From Bartonella rattimassiliensis 15908 (GTDB lineage: Bacteria; Pseudomonadota; Alphaproteobacteria; Rhizobiales; Rhizobiaceae): a stretch of 64,000 bases of DNA. Below, in pieces: positions 18,380 to 31,126 of this stretch. The translations under genes were made by a program, and so were the position numbers. The notes beneath the pieces are model-generated. The model had not been told where the DNA came from and searched no databases. It worked only from the letters and a program-made list of their open reading frames with translations. The stretch is taken from NCBI RefSeq assembly GCF_000278215.1, contig NZ_JH725064.1:491587-555586 (forward strand), given 5' to 3'. Position 1 is the stretch's first letter. Every line of letters begins with the position of its first letter.

Positions 18380-18664
18380 TTGCCTTCTACATTTGATAAA
18401 GTTGCTGATATTATTGCAGAAATTAGTGAAATTGATCGCAATATAATTACACCTGAAAGTCATACAATTGATGATTTGGGAATCGACAGTCTTGATTTTC
18501 TTGATATTGTTTTCGCTATTGATAAAGCTTTCCGAGTAAAAATTCCACTAGAACAATGGACTCAAGAAGTCAATGAAGGTTCCGTTACAACGGAAGAATA
18601 CTTTGTTCTTAAAAACCTTTGTGCAAAAATTGATGATCTTGTTGCCTTAAAACAGGCGGAGTGA
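18380..18664 (+). CDS. acpXL: Acyl carrier protein for very-long-chain fatty acids (AcpXL)
   Basis: Specialised acyl carrier protein that bears the C26-C28 hydroxy fatty acid destined for lipid A in Rhizobiales. The phosphopantetheine serine lies in [11 protein letters not shown]. At 94 aa it is longer than housekeeping AcpP, as expected for AcpXL. The start is TTG at 18380 with AAGGAA about 8 nt upstream. Its stop overlaps the possible GTG start of the next gene, so it heads the lipid A cluster. Confidence 0.92.
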
Positions 18665-18675
18665 TTTTTTTCACC

Positions 18676-19851
18676 ATGCATGATCAATCTGTATTCATCA
18701 CTGGTATAGGCCTTATAAGTTCCCTGGGGGAAGGAGTTCAACAGCATTGGAATCTCTTAAATGCTCCAATTCGTACAGCAAACCTAGATTGTACAACTTT
18801 TTTCCCCTACACGGTTCATCAATTGCCTGAAGTTGATTGGAGCTTACAAATTCCTAAAAAAAGTGATCAACGACAAATGGGAACATGGCAACGTCTTGGT
18901 ACCTATGCAGCTGGTCTTGCTCTTGATGATGCCGGCATGAAAAATAATGAAAAATTCACTTCAACAATGGATATGATCGTAGCAGCAAGTGGAGGAGAAC
19001 GTGATATCGCTGTTGATACACAGATTCTTTCTAAAGCGCGCGCAATCACCGATTATGCTTCTATGTTAAATATTGCTCTTTCAACCGAACTTCGCCCAAC
19101 ATTATTTTTGTCGCAACTTTCAAACCTTCTAGCAGGAAACATTTCAATTGTTCATAAAGTCACTGGATCATCTCGCACATTTATGGGAGAAGAAGGCAGT
19201 GGGCTTTCTGCGCTTCAAGTTGCTGTAGCTCGTATTAAGTCTGGACAAAGTACCCATGCTCTCGTAGGAAGTTCCTATAATGCACAAAGTTATGATATGT
19301 TGTTGGCGCATGAGCTTGGCGGTCTTTTAACTCATAATGGATGGAGTTCGGTATGGGAGCGTGAAATTTATCCTGGCGGTGGTATTATACCCGGTTCTGG
19401 TGGTATCTTCTTGGTTCTTGAAAGTGAAAAACATGCAAAAAAGCGTAACGCACGTGTTTATGCTAAAATTAATCAAATTGTTACAGACCAAATAGATAGA
19501 ACAAAAACTCCACTTAGAGAATCAATTACAACAATGCTAAAAGTTGTAGGCGCTAAATCTTCTTTAGCCATTTCAGCAGCCTCAGGTGCTCACGGAGCAA
19601 CAAAAGCAGAACAAAATGCTCTTGTTGATGCTGGTCTATCTTACCGCGGTATTACAACATTATTTGGTTATATGCGGGAAGCACAATTTCCTCTAGCACT
19701 TGCTATTGCGGCACTTTCAATTAAAAAAAAGCACTGTTTTCCAGCATTAAGCCATCATGAAAAACCTTTTTCTAAAAAAGTACATGAAATATTTGTTACA
19801 ACTATTGGCATAAAAAGAGCTGAAGGTATTGTACATCTTACAGCTGTTTGA
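18676..19851 (+). CDS. Beta-ketoacyl-ACP synthase-like protein without active-site cysteine (FabF2XL type)
   Basis: Thiolase-fold protein of the KAS II family in the acpXL cluster. Compared with its neighbour at 19867, the nucleophile region reads GSSRTFMGEEGSG with no cysteine, and the second-histidine region reads TTLFGYMREA with no GH. Only a histidine in GAHGATKAEQ remains. It is therefore unlikely to condense alone and may act as a heterodimer partner, as chain-length factors do in type II polyketide synthases (inference). A GTG at 18661 overlaps the acpXL stop; the ATG at 18676 (MHDQSVFITGIG) matches the family start better. Confidence 0.85.
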   Translation: MHDQSVFITGIGLISSLGEGVQQHWNLLNAPIRTANLDCTTFFPYTVHQLPEVDWSLQIPKKSDQRQMGTWQRLGTYAAGLALDDAGMKNNEKFTSTMDMIVAASGGERDIAVDTQILSKARAITDYASMLNIALSTELRPTLFLSQLSNLLAGNISIVHKVTGSSRTFMGEEGSGLSALQVAVARIKSGQSTHALVGSSYNAQSYDMLLAHELGGLLTHNGWSSVWEREIYPGGGIIPGSGGIFLVLESEKHAKKRNARVYAKINQIVTDQIDRTKTPLRESITTMLKVVGAKSSLAISAASGAHGATKAEQNALVDAGLSYRGITTLFGYMREAQFPLALAIAALSIKKKHCFPALSHHEKPFSKKVHEIFVTTIGIKRAEGIVHLTAV

Positions 19852-19866
19852 AGGGGAATTTCTATA

Positions 19867-21141
19867 GTGAAATATCATGATCATTTTGGACGTCCACTTG
19901 TAGCAATAACTGGAGCAGGCGTTGTCACATCACTAGGACAAGGCAAACATGAAAATTGGCAAAAATTAACAAGAGGTATAAGCGGCATCCATAAAATAAC
20001 ACGTTTTCCCGTTGAGGGATTAAATACATATATTGCTGGAACAATTGATTTCCTCAAAGAAAGTAATCTTGGTACTTCAGCTCTCTCTGAAAAACTTGCA
20101 CATCTTTCTGCTGAAGAAGCTTTAGAACAAGCTGCTATTGATAAAACAAATTTTAATGGACCACTCTTTCTAGCAGCTCCTCCTGTTGAACTAGAATGGA
20201 AAGCACGTTTTAGTCTTGATCAAGAAGAAGAATTCAATAATGAGCCTTCTTATGCCCATCTTCTTAAAGTCTGCAAGCATAAACTCCATGAAGCACTTTT
20301 TGAAACCACACAATTTGGTGCAATCGCAGAAAAACTGCAAAAAGCATTTGGCACAAAAGGACTTCCTGTGACACTTTCCACTGCTTGTGCATCTGGTGCA
20401 ACAGCCATTCAATTAGGTGTTGAGTCTATTCGACGAGGAGAGACAGATCGTGCTCTCACAGTTGCGACAGATGGTTCAGTTTCAGCAGAATCTCTCATCC
20501 GTTTTTCTTTACTATCGGCTCTTTCCACTCAGAATGATCCTGCAGAAAAAGCAGCGAAACCTTTTAGCCGTGATCGAGATGGATTTGTTATGGCAGAAGG
20601 TTCAGGTGCTCTTGTTCTTGAATCGCTTCAAAGCGCCTTAAACCGTAATGCTCCAGTTTTAGGAATTTTAGCTGGTTGTGGAGAAACAGCCGATGATTTT
20701 CACCGTACACGTTCAAAACCCGATGCATCACCCGCAATTGAATCCGTTCGCAAAGCCTTAAATGATGCAAAAATAACCATCAATGAAATTGATTATATTA
20801 ATGCCCATGGAACCTCAACACCTGAAAATGAGAAAATGGAATATCTTGCCTTATCAACAGTTTTCGGTGATCTTTTAGAACATATTCCAGTCTCTTCTAA
20901 TAAATCAATGGTTGGGCATACCTTAACTGCTGCTGGTGCCATAGAAACTGTTTTTTCGCTTTTAACTATTCAATCAGGGATACTTCCACCTACAATAAAT
21001 TACGATAATCCTGACCCTGCTATCCCCTTAGACGTTGTTCCTCATCATAGCCGTAAAGCCTGTGTCAATGCAGTTTTATCAAACTCATTTGGATTTGGTG
21101 GTCAAAATACGAGTCTTGTTATCACAGCATATAAAGGATAA
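19867..21141 (+). CDS. Beta-ketoacyl-ACP synthase II (FabF1XL type)
   Basis: Elongating ketosynthase of the very-long-chain fatty acid pathway. The full Cys-His-His set is present: TACASGATA (nucleophile), NAHGTSTPENE and KSMVGHTLTAAGA. The start is GTG at 19867 with AAGGGGAA about 8 nt upstream. It lies 15 bp after the cysteine-less paralogue, suggesting the two are co-translated and may pair. Confidence 0.9.
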   Translation: MKYHDHFGRPLVAITGAGVVTSLGQGKHENWQKLTRGISGIHKITRFPVEGLNTYIAGTIDFLKESNLGTSALSEKLAHLSAEEALEQAAIDKTNFNGPLFLAAPPVELEWKARFSLDQEEEFNNEPSYAHLLKVCKHKLHEALFETTQFGAIAEKLQKAFGTKGLPVTLSTACASGATAIQLGVESIRRGETDRALTVATDGSVSAESLIRFSLLSALSTQNDPAEKAAKPFSRDRDGFVMAEGSGALVLESLQSALNRNAPVLGILAGCGETADDFHRTRSKPDASPAIESVRKALNDAKITINEIDYINAHGTSTPENEKMEYLALSTVFGDLLEHIPVSSNKSMVGHTLTAAGAIETVFSLLTIQSGILPPTINYDNPDPAIPLDVVPHHSRKACVNAVLSNSFGFGGQNTSLVITAYKG

Positions 21142-21203
21142 TTCTTTAAAATATAAGAAAATTTTATAAGATTAACCTAACACATATTTTAAGGGGAATA
21201 ATA

Positions 21204-22232
21204 ATGCGCGCACTGCAACTCTTCAATGATCGTTGGCTTGAAATCACCAATATTCCTCCGCCCTCTTCACCTTCTCCTGATGAAGTAACTGTACGAATAA
21301 AAACTGTTGCACTTAATCATATTGATGTATGGGGATGGCGTGGCATGGCCTTTGCGAAAAGAAAAATACCACTCATCATTGGTGCAGAAGCCTCAGGTGA
21401 GATTATACAGGTAGGGGATAGCGTTAAACATCTCCAACTCGGACAGATTGTCTCAATTTATGGTGCACAAACCTGCGGAGTATGCCAAGCTTGTCATGAG
21501 GGACAGGATAATATGTGCAGTCATGTAAAGGGTGTCTATGGTTTTCATCTTGATGGATTCGCTTGTGAGCTTGTTAATTTGCCAGCACGTTTATTAGTTC
21601 CAGCACCTGCCCAATGTGATGAATTGCAAGCAGCTGTTGCTCCAATTACTTTTGGTACTGTAGAACATATGCTTTTCGATAACGCAAAACTTCAAGCAGG
21701 AGAAACAATTCTGATACAAGCCGGTGGTTCAGGTATTGGCTCTGCAGCTATTCAACTTGCAAAACACATGGGATGTACAGTTATCACAACTGTAGGCTCA
21801 GATGAAAAAATGGCAAAAGCATACTCTCTTGGAGCAGATCATGTGATTAATTATCGTCAAGATCGTTTTGAAGGTGTCGTGCGTAAATTAACCCAAAAAA
21901 AAGGTGTTGACGTTGTTTTTGAGCATGTTGGTGTCGATACATGGAATGGTTCTCTATTGTGCATGAAAAAAGGAGCACGTTTAGTTACTTGCGGTTCTAC
22001 TTCAGGTGTTTCAGCACCATTAAATCTCATGCAATTATTCCAGCAACAACTTAAAATATTCGGTTCATTTGGCTGCCGTATGGAAAATATGAAAAATGCC
22101 ATGCAAAAAATGGCACAAAAAGTTGTCCATCCTGTCATTGATACAATTGTTGGGCTTGATGAAATTGATACGGCCTTAAAACGAATGGAAAGCCGTGATA
22201 TTTTTGGTAAAATTATTATTAAAATCGATTAA
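21204..22232 (+). CDS. Zinc-binding alcohol dehydrogenase-family protein (adh2XL type)
   Basis: MDR-superfamily oxidoreductase. A structural zinc lobe with four cysteines (CGVCQACHEGQDNMC) and the nucleotide-binding QAGGSGIGSAAIQLAK are visible. Length is 342 aa with a good AAGGGGAA ribosome-binding site. In rhizobial acpXL clusters this gene lies between fabF1XL and lpxXL and is thought to act in long-chain acyl synthesis, probably as an enoyl-type reductase. The exact substrate is not shown by sequence. Confidence 0.85.
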   Translation: MRALQLFNDRWLEITNIPPPSSPSPDEVTVRIKTVALNHIDVWGWRGMAFAKRKIPLIIGAEASGEIIQVGDSVKHLQLGQIVSIYGAQTCGVCQACHEGQDNMCSHVKGVYGFHLDGFACELVNLPARLLVPAPAQCDELQAAVAPITFGTVEHMLFDNAKLQAGETILIQAGGSGIGSAAIQLAKHMGCTVITTVGSDEKMAKAYSLGADHVINYRQDRFEGVVRKLTQKKGVDVVFEHVGVDTWNGSLLCMKKGARLVTCGSTSGVSAPLNLMQLFQQQLKIFGSFGCRMENMKNAMQKMAQKVVHPVIDTIVGLDEIDTALKRMESRDIFGKIIIKID

Positions 22233-22238
22233 ATTCTA

Positions 22239-23168
22239 ATGAAATATTCTCTTAAAAACTTTGTATATCATATTAAAATTACAGCAAAAAAAGTATCTTA
22301 TTGGTTATGGGCATATCTGCTCTTTGGTTTTTTATTTATTTTAAAATGTTTTCCAGCCAACACAGGAATTTCTTTTTTTTCTTGGTTAATGAAAAAAATC
22401 GGTCCCCTTTTACATCGTCATCAAATTACACTTTCAAACCTTAGAAAGGCATATCCAGAAAAAACAGAGAAAGAACTCCATGCGATTGCAATAGAAATGT
22501 GGGAAAACATAGGGCGCTTCCTAGCCGAATATATTTTTCTTGATAAAATTTTTGACTTTGATTCTCATTCAGACAAACCAGGTTTCATTGAAGTTAAAGG
22601 AGCTGAAATTTTTGAACGATTAAAAAATGAAAAAAAACCACATATTTTTTTCACGGCACATACTGGAAATTTTGAACTTCTCCCCATTTGTGCACAAAGT
22701 TTTGATTTAAATATTACGGTATTATTTAGACCACCCAACAATCCTTATATTGCCAAACGCGTTCTTAAAGCACGACAAACTTATATGGGACATCTTGTTC
22801 CCTCCAAAGCCGGTGCAGCATGGGCATTAGCAGGAAAATTAGCGGAAGGTGAAAATGTTGGTATGCTTGTCGATCAAAAATTTCGCCGCGGTATCATGGG
22901 AATATTTTTTAACAGACCCCTTAAAACAAATCCCTTAATTATAAAGCTTGCGCGACAATATAACTGTGATATTTATCCAGCGCGTTGTATTCGTCTGCCT
23001 GAAGGACGACATCGTTTAGAATTATATGAACATGTAGAACTCCCACGTGATGAAAAAAATGATATTGATATAGCTGCTTCTACGCAAAAATTAAATGATA
23101 TTGTTGAAAATTGGGTTCGTGAATATCCCGGACAATGGATGTGGTTACATAGACGTTGGGATATCTAA
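22239..23168 (+). CDS. lpxXL: Lipid A very-long-chain acyltransferase (LpxXL/HtrB-MsbB family)
   Basis: Inner-membrane acyltransferase expected to move the C28 chain from AcpXL to lipid A. A membrane helix is visible near residues 20-40. The catalytic HX4E motif is HTGNFE, and the LVDQKFRRGI and ARCIRLPEGRHR stretches fit the LpxL/LpxM family. It starts 7 bp after the dehydrogenase and closes the cluster. Confidence 0.9.
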   Translation: MKYSLKNFVYHIKITAKKVSYWLWAYLLFGFLFILKCFPANTGISFFSWLMKKIGPLLHRHQITLSNLRKAYPEKTEKELHAIAIEMWENIGRFLAEYIFLDKIFDFDSHSDKPGFIEVKGAEIFERLKNEKKPHIFFTAHTGNFELLPICAQSFDLNITVLFRPPNNPYIAKRVLKARQTYMGHLVPSKAGAAWALAGKLAEGENVGMLVDQKFRRGIMGIFFNRPLKTNPLIIKLARQYNCDIYPARCIRLPEGRHRLELYEHVELPRDEKNDIDIAASTQKLNDIVENWVREYPGQWMWLHRRWDI

Positions 23169-25419: not shown

Positions 25420-25887
25420 TTACGCGATAATATCGCTGTTATCATTTTTTGTAATGGATGATGACATTTGCACAGTTATCTTTTTTGGTTTTAATTCAGC
25501 TGGCATTTCCCTTTTAAGCTGAATATGAAGAAGTCCATCTCCAAGTTCTGCTCCAATAACCTTAACATGATCAGCCAAATGAAAACGCCGTTCAAAAGCA
25601 CGCGAAGCAATACCTCGATAAAGAAACTCTCGTTCTTCGTCATCCTTTTCATGCTTCCTGTCTCCCTTAACAATCAGCTGATTACAATGCGTTTCAATAT
25701 CAATTTCATCTTGAGAAAAACCAGCAACAGCCATAGAAATTCTATAAGAATCCTCAGTTAAACGCTCAATATTATAAGGGGGATAAGAAGAAACTTCATC
25801 TAGTTGTGTTCTAGAATCAAACCAGTTAAAAAGGTGATCAAAACCTACTGTGGAACGATAAAATGGTGAAAAATCTACTTGACGCAT
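25420..25887 (-). CDS. Small heat-shock protein, Hsp20/IbpA family
   Basis: ATP-independent holdase. The alpha-crystallin domain runs from about residue 35 (YPPYNIERLTEDSYRISMAV) to 135, with the C-terminal I-x-I-like part KKITVQM. Length is 155 aa. The AGGAGG ribosome-binding site sits about 9 nt before the ATG and lies inside a ROSE-like leader, so temperature control of translation is likely. Confidence 0.92.
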   Translation of the reverse strand: MRQVDFSPFYRSTVGFDHLFNWFDSRTQLDEVSSYPPYNIERLTEDSYRISMAVAGFSQDEIDIETHCNQLIVKGDRKHEKDDEEREFLYRGIASRAFERRFHLADHVKVIGAELGDGLLHIQLKREMPAELKPKKITVQMSSSITKNDNSDIIA

Positions 25888-25960
25888 AATATTGCCCTCC
25901 TCTAGAGCGACTGTAATTTATAATTAATTCACAAAGTTCCCAAATGGCAAACTTACTTGT
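25888..25960 (-). promoter_or_regulatory. Candidate ROSE-type RNA thermometer in the hsp20 5' UTR
   Basis: On the minus strand a hairpin AAGTT-(TGCC ATTT GGG)-AACTT occupies 25934-25954. Next to the start codon, TCGCTCTAGAGGAGG contains the U(U/C)GCU signature of ROSE elements opposite the AGGAGG Shine-Dalgarno. ROSE elements are known upstream of small heat-shock genes in Rhizobiales. The folding was judged by eye only. Confidence 0.6.
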
Positions 25961-26161
25961 GAAACCATGGTCCCATAATGGCAACCATATATACTATTTG
26001 GTAATCGTTTTTTCTCATTTCAACTTTTTTGTATTTGAATTGATAAAAACTATTTGAAGCATCCCTCTTTCTTAATCCTTTTTCCCCATTACATAAATAT
26101 CAAAGCCCTTTCATAATCTCACATCGCCCTAAGTTGCAAAATACACTGTAAAGGATATCAC

Positions 26162-27058
26162 TTGGAAACGCCTCTTCATCAAGTAAACTGGGAATCTACA
26201 CCTTCTAATATTCATTATAGCAGCTTTAAAACAACAATGGATCGCAAAATTTGTTTTGCGATCACATATCCTGAAACGGAAAAATCTAATGGAACAATTA
26301 TTATTCTTGAAAACTGCGCAAATACTTTAGAAAAATATTTTTTACCAATCAATGAAATTTCTAAACGCGGCTTTTATACGGCAATATTTAATTGGTTTGA
26401 TAAAGAAAAAACATCTTTCAAGACAAGAAAACAAAACCGATATTATTATTTTGATATAAATAATGATATTAATGACTTATATGAATTTTTTAAAAATATA
26501 GTTTATCCTCATTGTCCGCCACCTTACTCTATATTAGCCTATGGCATAGGTGGATTGATAGCACTTAGCGGATTAGATTTCATTAACCGTCATTTTAATA
26601 GATTGCTCTGTGTTTCTCCTCTTTTTGCTCCATTCGGCAATAAAACGAATAGTTTTCAACATAAATTAACACAATTTTTTTCTGATATAGGTCTTGGCTT
26701 CATACCAGTGAAAGATGGAAAAAAAATAAAACAATTGAGACACACTCATAAAGTGCCCACCCCTTCTATTTCATCTGCAACATCCAGATGGATGGCATCA
26801 GCATTTAATGCGATTGATTCTGTAAAGAAAAATCTACTTCACGGACATTTACAAATCCCAACACTATTTATTCTTGCCAATCAAAATAATATTGCGAACA
26901 ATATTGAAGTGCGGCAATTATGCCAAAATATACGTCTGACAGAAAATATTACTATTAGAGGTGCTGAACTTGATACAATTATGTATAAAGAAGATCATAA
27001 AAAACAGTTTTGGGCCGCATTTGATGCATTTATTCCTAACGATATATCTGTAAAATAA
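26162..27058 (+). CDS. Lysophospholipase-like alpha/beta-hydrolase fold protein with lost catalytic triad
   Basis: 298 aa, TTG start with AAGGA upstream. The fold matches the PldB-like 'serine aminopeptidase S33' group: strand-turn LAYGIGGLIAL, later PTLFILANQ and a C-terminal QFWAAFDAFIP. Each catalytic position differs from the family pattern as I remember it: the nucleophile elbow is AYGIGG instead of GHSxGG (Ser to Gly), the acid position reads NQNNIAN instead of a D-containing loop, and the histidine position reads GAELDTI instead of GARHEI. It is probably a pseudoenzyme or a decaying gene. The frame is fully open. Confidence 0.7.
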   Translation: METPLHQVNWESTPSNIHYSSFKTTMDRKICFAITYPETEKSNGTIIILENCANTLEKYFLPINEISKRGFYTAIFNWFDKEKTSFKTRKQNRYYYFDINNDINDLYEFFKNIVYPHCPPPYSILAYGIGGLIALSGLDFINRHFNRLLCVSPLFAPFGNKTNSFQHKLTQFFSDIGLGFIPVKDGKKIKQLRHTHKVPTPSISSATSRWMASAFNAIDSVKKNLLHGHLQIPTLFILANQNNIANNIEVRQLCQNIRLTENITIRGAELDTIMYKEDHKKQFWAAFDAFIPNDISVK

Positions 27059-27929: not shown

Positions 27930-28292
27930 ATGAAACGAATCCTTCTCGCAGAAGATGATAACGATATGCGTCGCTTTCTCGTAAAAGCTTTAGAGCGTGC
28001 AGGCTACGAAGTTGCCGATTTTGATAATGGTATTAGCGCATATGAACGTTTACAAGAAGAACCATTTTCTCTTCTACTTACTGACATTGTAATGCCAGAG
28101 ATGGACGGAATCGAACTCGCACGACGCGCTACTGAAATTGATCCTGATTTACGCGTAATGTTCATTACAGGTTTTGCAGCGGTTGCACTCAATTCAAATA
28201 ATGATGCTCCTCCTGATGCAAAAGTACTCTCTAAACCATTTCACTTACGTGAGCTTGTAAATGAGGTTGAAAAGATCCTTATAGCTGCTTAA
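27930..28292 (+). CDS. cpdR: Response regulator CpdR
   Basis: Single-domain receiver. In alphaproteobacteria, unphosphorylated CpdR directs ClpXP to the pole and to cell-cycle substrates, and the CckA-ChpT phosphorelay controls it. The acidic pair is in LAEDDNDMRRF, the phosphoacceptor Asp in LLLTDIVMPEMDG, and the conserved Lys in LSKPF. At 120 aa it has no output domain, as expected. Confidence 0.93.
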   Translation: MKRILLAEDDNDMRRFLVKALERAGYEVADFDNGISAYERLQEEPFSLLLTDIVMPEMDGIELARRATEIDPDLRVMFITGFAAVALNSNNDAPPDAKVLSKPFHLRELVNEVEKILIAA

Positions 28293-30555: not shown

Positions 30556-30837
30556 ATGGGAAAAATTCAAGCACGCATACCTGATGAAATTCAGGAAATT
30601 GCAAGTACAGTTATTAACTCAACGGGTTTGACTGTATCAGATGCGGTACGCATGTTTATGACCCGCATTGCTAGAGATAGAGCACTACCACTTGATCTAT
30701 TTCAACCTAACCCAGAAACATTACAAGCTATTGAGGACGCTGATATGGGACGTGTTAAGCATACATCATTAGATGGCTTACGAACTATGATCCGCAATGA
30801 CAAAGCTAGGGTATGTAAATCTGAAAAACGAACCTGA
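30556..30837 (+). CDS. RelB/DinJ-family antitoxin
   Basis: 93 aa. The N-terminal ribbon-helix-helix (GKIQARIPDEIQEIA...LTVSDAVRMFMTRI) is typical of RelB/DinJ. The C-terminal part should wrap the toxin. It is followed 7 bp later by the yafQ-like gene and preceded by a palindromic operator, so autoregulation is likely. Confidence 0.88.
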   Translation: MGKIQARIPDEIQEIASTVINSTGLTVSDAVRMFMTRIARDRALPLDLFQPNPETLQAIEDADMGRVKHTSLDGLRTMIRNDKARVCKSEKRT

Positions 30838-30844
30838 GCTTGCT

Positions 30845-31126
30845 ATGCGTGAAATCGTCTATACTCGATCATTTAGACGTGATCTCAAACGTGAAAGTAA
30901 AGGCAGATACGCTAATTCACTAGAAGAGGATTTGCTGCTTGTGATTCAAGCATTAGCAGAGAATGCTCCACTAAAGGTGCATTGGCGAGATCATGCGCTA
31001 ACAGGTCAATGGCGCAATTGCCGCGATTGTCATATCAAACCAGATTTGGTTTTGATCTATCGAAAACCAGATACCAAAACGTTAGAGCTTTTACGACTTG
31101 GTTCACACTCTGAACTACGTTTATGA
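30845..31126 (+). CDS. YafQ/RelE-family mRNA interferase toxin
   Basis: About 93 aa, start MREIVYTRSFRRDLKRES at 30845. The frame extends back to 30797, inside the antitoxin. The conserved YafQ segment HWRDHALTGQWRNCRDCHI and PDLVLIYR supplies the His/Asp residues used for ribosome-dependent mRNA cleavage. It is full-length and looks intact, unlike the relE at 52.3 kb. Confidence 0.88.
   Translation: MREIVYTRSFRRDLKRESKGRYANSLEEDLLLVIQALAENAPLKVHWRDHALTGQWRNCRDCHIKPDLVLIYRKPDTKTLELLRLGSHSELRL

Follow-up and report, generated by a model that had tools for sequence, protein, structure and literature searches.

How can a gene that has lost the catalytic residues of its family stay open and recognisable? 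This question is raised by a gene of Bartonella rattimassiliensis 15908, which lies at 26162..27058 on the forward strand of the stretch analysed here (64,000 nucleotides of contig NZ_JH725064.1, in the following the window) and which a first-pass annotation had read as an alpha/beta-hydrolase without Ser, Asp and His of the triad, being either a pseudoenzyme or a gene in early decay. The frame is indeed open at this place, with 298 amino acids from a TTG start, and the elbow, acid-loop and histidine-loop motifs named in that annotation are all present. The product is of the PldB/monoacylglycerol-lipase type but without catalytic residues, and we refer to it as a pseudo-lipase. Its start is well kept in the window's Bartonella group: of the 47 intact orthologues, 46 have TTG at the identical aligned codon (in the 47th, L034, it lies two codons off in the alignment), and the ribosome-binding-like stretch before it (taaaggat; 26149..26164 with the start, forward strand) is kept across the group, an AAAGG/AAGG-type stretch preceding the start in 43/47.

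A recognisable hydrolase fold had also been claimed, and this holds. The protein scores 30 bits with Pfam Hydrolase_4 (PF12146; cut-off 27), and its predicted structure (pTM 0.82, mean pLDDT 79.5, poor confidence at the termini and model residues 81-89 and 185-201) is a canonical alpha/beta-hydrolase, matched by Foldseek to the monoacylglycerol lipase Rv0183 (E 1.5e-14) and by VIA-align to the monoglyceride lipases of yeast (Z 24.8 over 277 residues) and human (Z 24.7). The best 13 VIA-align rows are all monoacylglycerol lipases (human MGLL, yeast 4zwn, mycobacterial Rv0183), with Z 24.0-24.8 over 246-277 residues; identity, in contrast, is only 10-13%, and the window's group is without Ser and His and mostly without Asp. 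A profile search of the PDB likewise found human MGLL (E 4.3e-10) and, as best match, the monoglyceride lipase of Paleococcus (9.9e-13), while a single-sequence search of the PDB returned just three chance-level matches (E >= 0.13; myelin basic protein twice and a ribosomal protein). The cap segment is shorter than in a triad-bearing orthologue. With the NCBIfam model for lysophospholipase L2 (NF008019), the protein reaches 19.6 bits, far from the equivalog cut-off of 362. Three further matches above the PF12146 cut-off were found in the same genome, which is thus not short of such hydrolases.

The neighbourhood ties the gene to its relatives. Divergently upstream lies a small heat-shock protein gene (25420..25887, reverse strand) and downstream a CpdR-like response regulator (27930..28292, forward strand), which we take, from their sequences, to be hsp20 and cpdR. 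Both serve as synteny markers: hsp20 is divergent upstream in 79 of the 80 named loci, from Xanthobacteraceae to Bartonella, and cpdR lies downstream inside the fetched flank in 48 of them, several flanks being cut by contig ends. In Phyllobacterium (L129) and in a bee-type Bartonella (L135, see below), genes for an inositol-monophosphatase-family protein and an N-formylglutamate amidohydrolase stand between the pseudo-lipase orthologue and cpdR; the space up to cpdR is shrunken in the window's group. Synteny and tree together support orthology of the window gene to triad-bearing Rhizobiaceae genes, the PldB-like homologues L127, L129 and L136 among them, which score 147-156 bits with NF008019 and are thus themselves below its cut-off; the window protein differs from PldB in its far lower score and in the lost triad. 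The region between hsp20 and the pseudo-lipase gene (25888..26161) holds blocks that are conserved among the 22 sequences compared and are perhaps a control region common to both genes. Elsewhere in the window, the genes at 18380-23168 resemble a very-long-chain fatty acid cluster for lipid A, presumably encoding an acyl carrier protein, two ketoacyl synthases, an alcohol dehydrogenase and the acyltransferase LpxXL, and two small overlapping frames at 30556-31126 are toxin-antitoxin-like, which we take for lookalikes of a RelB/DinJ-type antitoxin and a RelE/YafQ-type toxin.

After a search of 71 Bartonella genomes, 60 were found to carry an intact copy, three a broken one, and eight gave no match. 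The intact copies comprise 47 of the window's kind (the window included, the others at 56-81% identity to it), with B. clarridgeiae, B. grahamii, B. tribocorum, B. vinsonii and B. doshiae among the named records, and 13 at 32-38% identity from a second group including B. choladocola, which we name "bee-type" by assumption. The 47 omit the broken copies L047 (G054), L049 (G022) and L050 (G031) and include the window's own gene (L001); L064 in the locus list duplicates L042.

Alignment with triad-bearing orthologues places AYGIGG, LANQNNIAN (residues 238-246) and GAELDTI opposite HSTG, GAD and GARHEI. In the former nucleophile elbow (AYGIGG, residues 126-131; 26537..26554, forward strand), Gly128 stands where triad-bearing relatives carry Ser; in the former acid loop (residues 238-249, LANQNNIANNIE; 26873..26908, forward strand), Asn242 occupies the acid column, and in the former histidine loop (GAELDTI, residues 267-273; 26960..26980, forward strand), Leu270 the base column. 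The window protein therefore has neither the Ser elbow nor the catalytic Asp and His of an active PldB or monoacylglycerol lipase, and with Gly, Asn and Leu it also departs from an Asp-nucleophile hydrolase (Asp nucleophile, Asp/Glu acid, His). Among the 47 intact sequences, the nucleophile column reads Gly in 46 and Glu in one, the base column Leu in all, and the acid column Asn in 41, Asp in four and Ser in two. The proposed loss of the triad thus stands for Ser and His throughout the group but not for Asp, which is still found in 4/47. The oxyanion-loop Gly and the beta4-loop Gln-Gly, both usual in the triad-bearing relatives shown, are missing from the group too. Gly128 is spelled by all four Gly codons in the 46 sequences that have it and Leu270 by four Leu codons in the 47, which means that the letters of the dead site are themselves being kept. 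Seven residues are invariant across the group: E57, S67, S152, H167, D175, C254 and D288.

The gene is under purifying selection. Estimated with our own codon model fitted on FastTree trees, omega is 0.26 for the 47 sequences, with omega = 1 rejected (2dlnL 1165) and with similar values on terminal and internal branches, i.e., no terminal rise. The bee-type group behaves alike on both kinds of branches, at an omega of 0.18 (2dlnL 655). For triad-bearing orthologues of Bradyrhizobium/Afipia (16 sequences), omega is 0.065, and in named Bartonella of the window's group the neighbours show 0.071 for hsp20 (22 sequences), 0.023 for cpdR (22), 0.097 for iscA (15) and 0.167 for mazG (12), against 0.253 for the pseudo-lipase in the same set (22); these sets omit loci with the gene outside the fetched flank or with a stop in the aligned piece. 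The constraint on the pseudo-lipase is real but moderate, about four times weaker than in the triad-bearing orthologues and below that on each neighbour tested.

Within the protein, the tightest sites fall in strands beta5 and beta7 and in the segment 152-180, and the loosest parts are the N-terminus, the beta4 loop, the variable cap and the C-terminus (omega 0.50-0.77). Residues 152-180, which begin at the end of strand beta6 and reach into the cap (26615..26701, forward strand), are the longest strongly constrained block, with a mean omega of 0.13 and only 1.9% of the blocks of equal length as low or lower. A concentration of constraint in the former catalytic loops was not confirmed: the elbow (omega 0.20, rank 0.40 among equal-length blocks), the acid loop (0.15, rank 0.20) and the His loop (0.14, rank 0.18) are not unusual for their length, and other parts of the protein are kept better than the old site as such.

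Among copies of the window's kind, 47 of 50 are intact, including those of G006 and G027, where a stop was flagged inside the match; counted from TTG, these two run open over 299 and 303 codons, so we took the flagged stops as ordinary ends. The three broken copies, in G022, G054 and G031, could partly be assembly faults (G031 consists of 600 contigs). A profile search of the eight lacking genomes revealed nothing but a 41-residue stretch in G002 (E 0.005). In seven of these eight, hsp20 and cpdR lie close together (gap 638-831 bases), with no pseudo-lipase match at E 0.05; G063 (L309), on the other hand, still has both intervening genes, identified by similarity to those for N-formylglutamate amidohydrolase and inositol phosphatase, and lacks only the pseudo-lipase. 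In the second rpoB tree, from which G031 was left out as its rpoB match is in two pieces, G063 is the earliest branch of the non-bee genomes (support 100); the remaining seven lie elsewhere, in two groups whose mutual relation is unsettled in the tree. This placement of G063 points to at least two separate complete losses, beside the three disrupted copies. With 60 intact copies, three broken and eight absent among 71 genomes, the pseudo-lipase is useful but dispensable, not essential.

The history of the loss becomes visible outside the window's group. All 13 bee-type orthologues retain the acid Asp and the His, and their nucleophile column reads Asp in 12 and Glu in one (L059, B. choladocola). 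Similarly, the two genomes of genus g27 have Asp at the nucleophile column and keep Asp acid and His, so that residues compatible with an Asp-nucleophile hydrolase are found in 12/13 bee-type orthologues and 2/2 of g27. In genera g73 and g6, with one genome each, Gly takes the place of the nucleophile and Pro that of the base; the QGxGG elbow and the Pro for His of L072 (g73) and L223 (g6) look like a separate His loss in these presumed insect-symbiont relatives. In the other relatives, represented by 145 distinct frames, the nucleophile is Ser in 142, Gly in two (L220 of G146 and L226, a fragment in G162) and a gap in one (L225); His is present in 144, and the acid is Asp in 142, Glu in two and Ala in one. 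These frames remain from 186 loci read, some places having been fetched twice, once Bartonella, g27, g73, g6 and identical frames are set aside; they include L228, a second match of one genome and maybe a paralogue, and the reading covered part of the 145 genomes with a family-search match. In L220, from the small 1.4 Mb genome of G146, the elbow reads HGVG, with Gly for the nucleophilic Ser, and Asp and His are retained; where L220 belongs in the tree is uncertain, and its Gly is possibly a separate loss of the nucleophile. The reduced 1.2 Mb genome of G162 carries two short matches (L226/L229) in one 193-aa frame, which look like what remains of this gene.

In a protein tree of 40 rows, all triad-less members form one clade (99/92), with G146 outside on a long branch. 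On rpoB, g27, g73 and g6 group together (99/98) and fall next to Bartonella at a modest support of 82/83; two genomes of this first rpoB tree, G110 and G138, stand apart on a branch more than 4 long, most likely due to a wrong reading frame, and affect none of the conclusions. The groupings in both trees make a single loss of Ser probable, in the common stem of Bartonella and the neighbouring genera, followed by two losses of His, seemingly in separate lineages, the window's Bartonella group and g73/g6. The 25 triad-bearing sequences with codons read use TCN serine codons, from which a change to Gly or Asp needed more than one base change. An Asp stage as a certain ancestral step had to be rejected, as parsimony gives the ancestor Asp or Gly equally well.

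Taken from alignments, trees and codon models, the evidence favours a clade-wide pseudoenzyme, which is very probably kept under purifying selection and not decaying. The alignment of Bartonella orthologues that the first-pass annotation had proposed as a check gave Ser and His lost in all 47 intact copies of the window's group with the fold under selection, and of the two readings offered there, it is the pseudoenzyme that prevails for the clade. It would have been made by stepwise loss of the triad: a serine hydrolase of the PldB/monoacylglycerol-lipase kind probably first lost Ser in Bartonella and three neighbouring genera, one clade in the protein tree, and the window's group then His (to Leu), usually Asp (to Asn), the oxyanion Gly and the beta4 Gln-Gly as well, the hydrolase core and the remaining loops staying under purifying selection. 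Ester cleavage would have been given up in favour of work by binding, and the product most likely binds a ligand or a partner and catalyses nothing. One possibility is that the old pocket takes up an acyl or lysolipid-like ligand, which is bound but not cleaved; the other is contact with a partner protein, made by the strongly conserved 152-180 segment together with the elbow, acid and His loops in their newly fixed form. Either would be expected in that segment and among the new letters fixed around the former site. Given a pseudoenzyme, ligand binding in the old site is a tentative choice at somewhat less than even chance, and partner binding or scaffolding somewhat less likely still.

A structural or scaffold role alone, for instance as a subunit or protein partner with the old pocket empty of ligand, lies within the pseudoenzyme reading, and we consider it possible without counting it as likely. 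The tightest constraint in the core strands and in 152-180, and not in the former catalytic loops as such, would fit it, but these loops are fixed in new letters all the same. The same role is suggested by the conserved divergent pairing with hsp20 (79/80 named loci); this pairing, however, is equally old in triad-bearing relatives and so has no special bearing on the dead form.

It is improbable that the bee-type Bartonella and g27 possess a hydrolase with an Asp nucleophile, carrying an Asp-Asp-His triad as in haloalkane dehalogenases, and that the window's form is its dead descendant. Within the triad-less clade, an acid at 128 (Asp/Glu) comes with a kept His in 15 of 16 sequences (13 bee-type, two g27; the exception is L032), and Gly there in none of 48 (46 of the window's group, one each of g73 and g6). 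This association could mean that Asp and His of the half-dead form work as a pair, in catalysis or in structure, or it could be chance; the co-variation rests on four lineages and could also be a salt bridge. L066 of g27 shows a weak haloalkane dehalogenase match below the cut-off (E 2.7e-6, 27 bits vs 265), but a similarly weak one is found in the Ser-bearing L127 (E 7.9e-6). Moreover, G146 (L220), outside the clade, pairs Gly with a kept His, the bee-type L059 has Glu, and the ancestral state, as said, may equally have been Gly. There is a slim chance that the lineage changed trade twice, a stem change of Ser to Asp giving an Asp-Asp-His enzyme with a new chemistry in bee-type Bartonella and g27, and the other Bartonella, mostly blood-infecting, then turning it into a non-catalytic ligand sensor or partner binder beside a heat-shock gene.

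Less probable again is a re-tooled enzyme in which other residues, e.g., S152, H167 and D175, took over catalysis. These three belong to the seven invariant residues and lie in or at the longest strongly constrained block, but by profile alignment human monoglyceride lipase has Ser-Pro at the place of S152, which points to a structural role of this residue; H167 is not found in every bee-type orthologue (Ser in L057), and neither the oxyanion Gly nor the Gln-Gly motif is left. Early decay, finally, under which a dying gene would have shed its triad and the open frame would be a remnant, is hardly credible: the three broken and eight absent copies and an omega roughly fourfold that of the triad-bearing Bradyrhizobium/Afipia orthologues would suit it, but 47/50 copies are intact, neutrality is rejected with no rise on terminal branches, and the start and its ribosome-binding-like stretch are conserved.

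Pseudoenzymes with an alpha/beta-hydrolase fold are already known. Neuroligins and NDRG proteins, adhesion or trafficking proteins of eukaryotes, resemble the Bartonella pseudo-lipase by description, in that the fold is kept, the triad lost and the gene retained. The Bartonella case stands out by its unusually complete series of stages. Among open-access articles on Bartonella with lysophospholipase, pldB or alpha beta hydrolase, no title or beginning of an abstract treats this gene, and the main texts of PMC5156944 and PMC6044324 contain no word beginning with lysophospholipase or lipase. As a caution for annotation, the Bartonella gene should not be named a lysophospholipase on its fold alone. 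In living relatives, one syntenic place is occupied by orthologues with the triad, by half-dead ones without Ser but with Asp and His, and by fully dead ones; with the two apparent losses of His, this opens the way from enzyme to non-enzyme to testing stage by stage.
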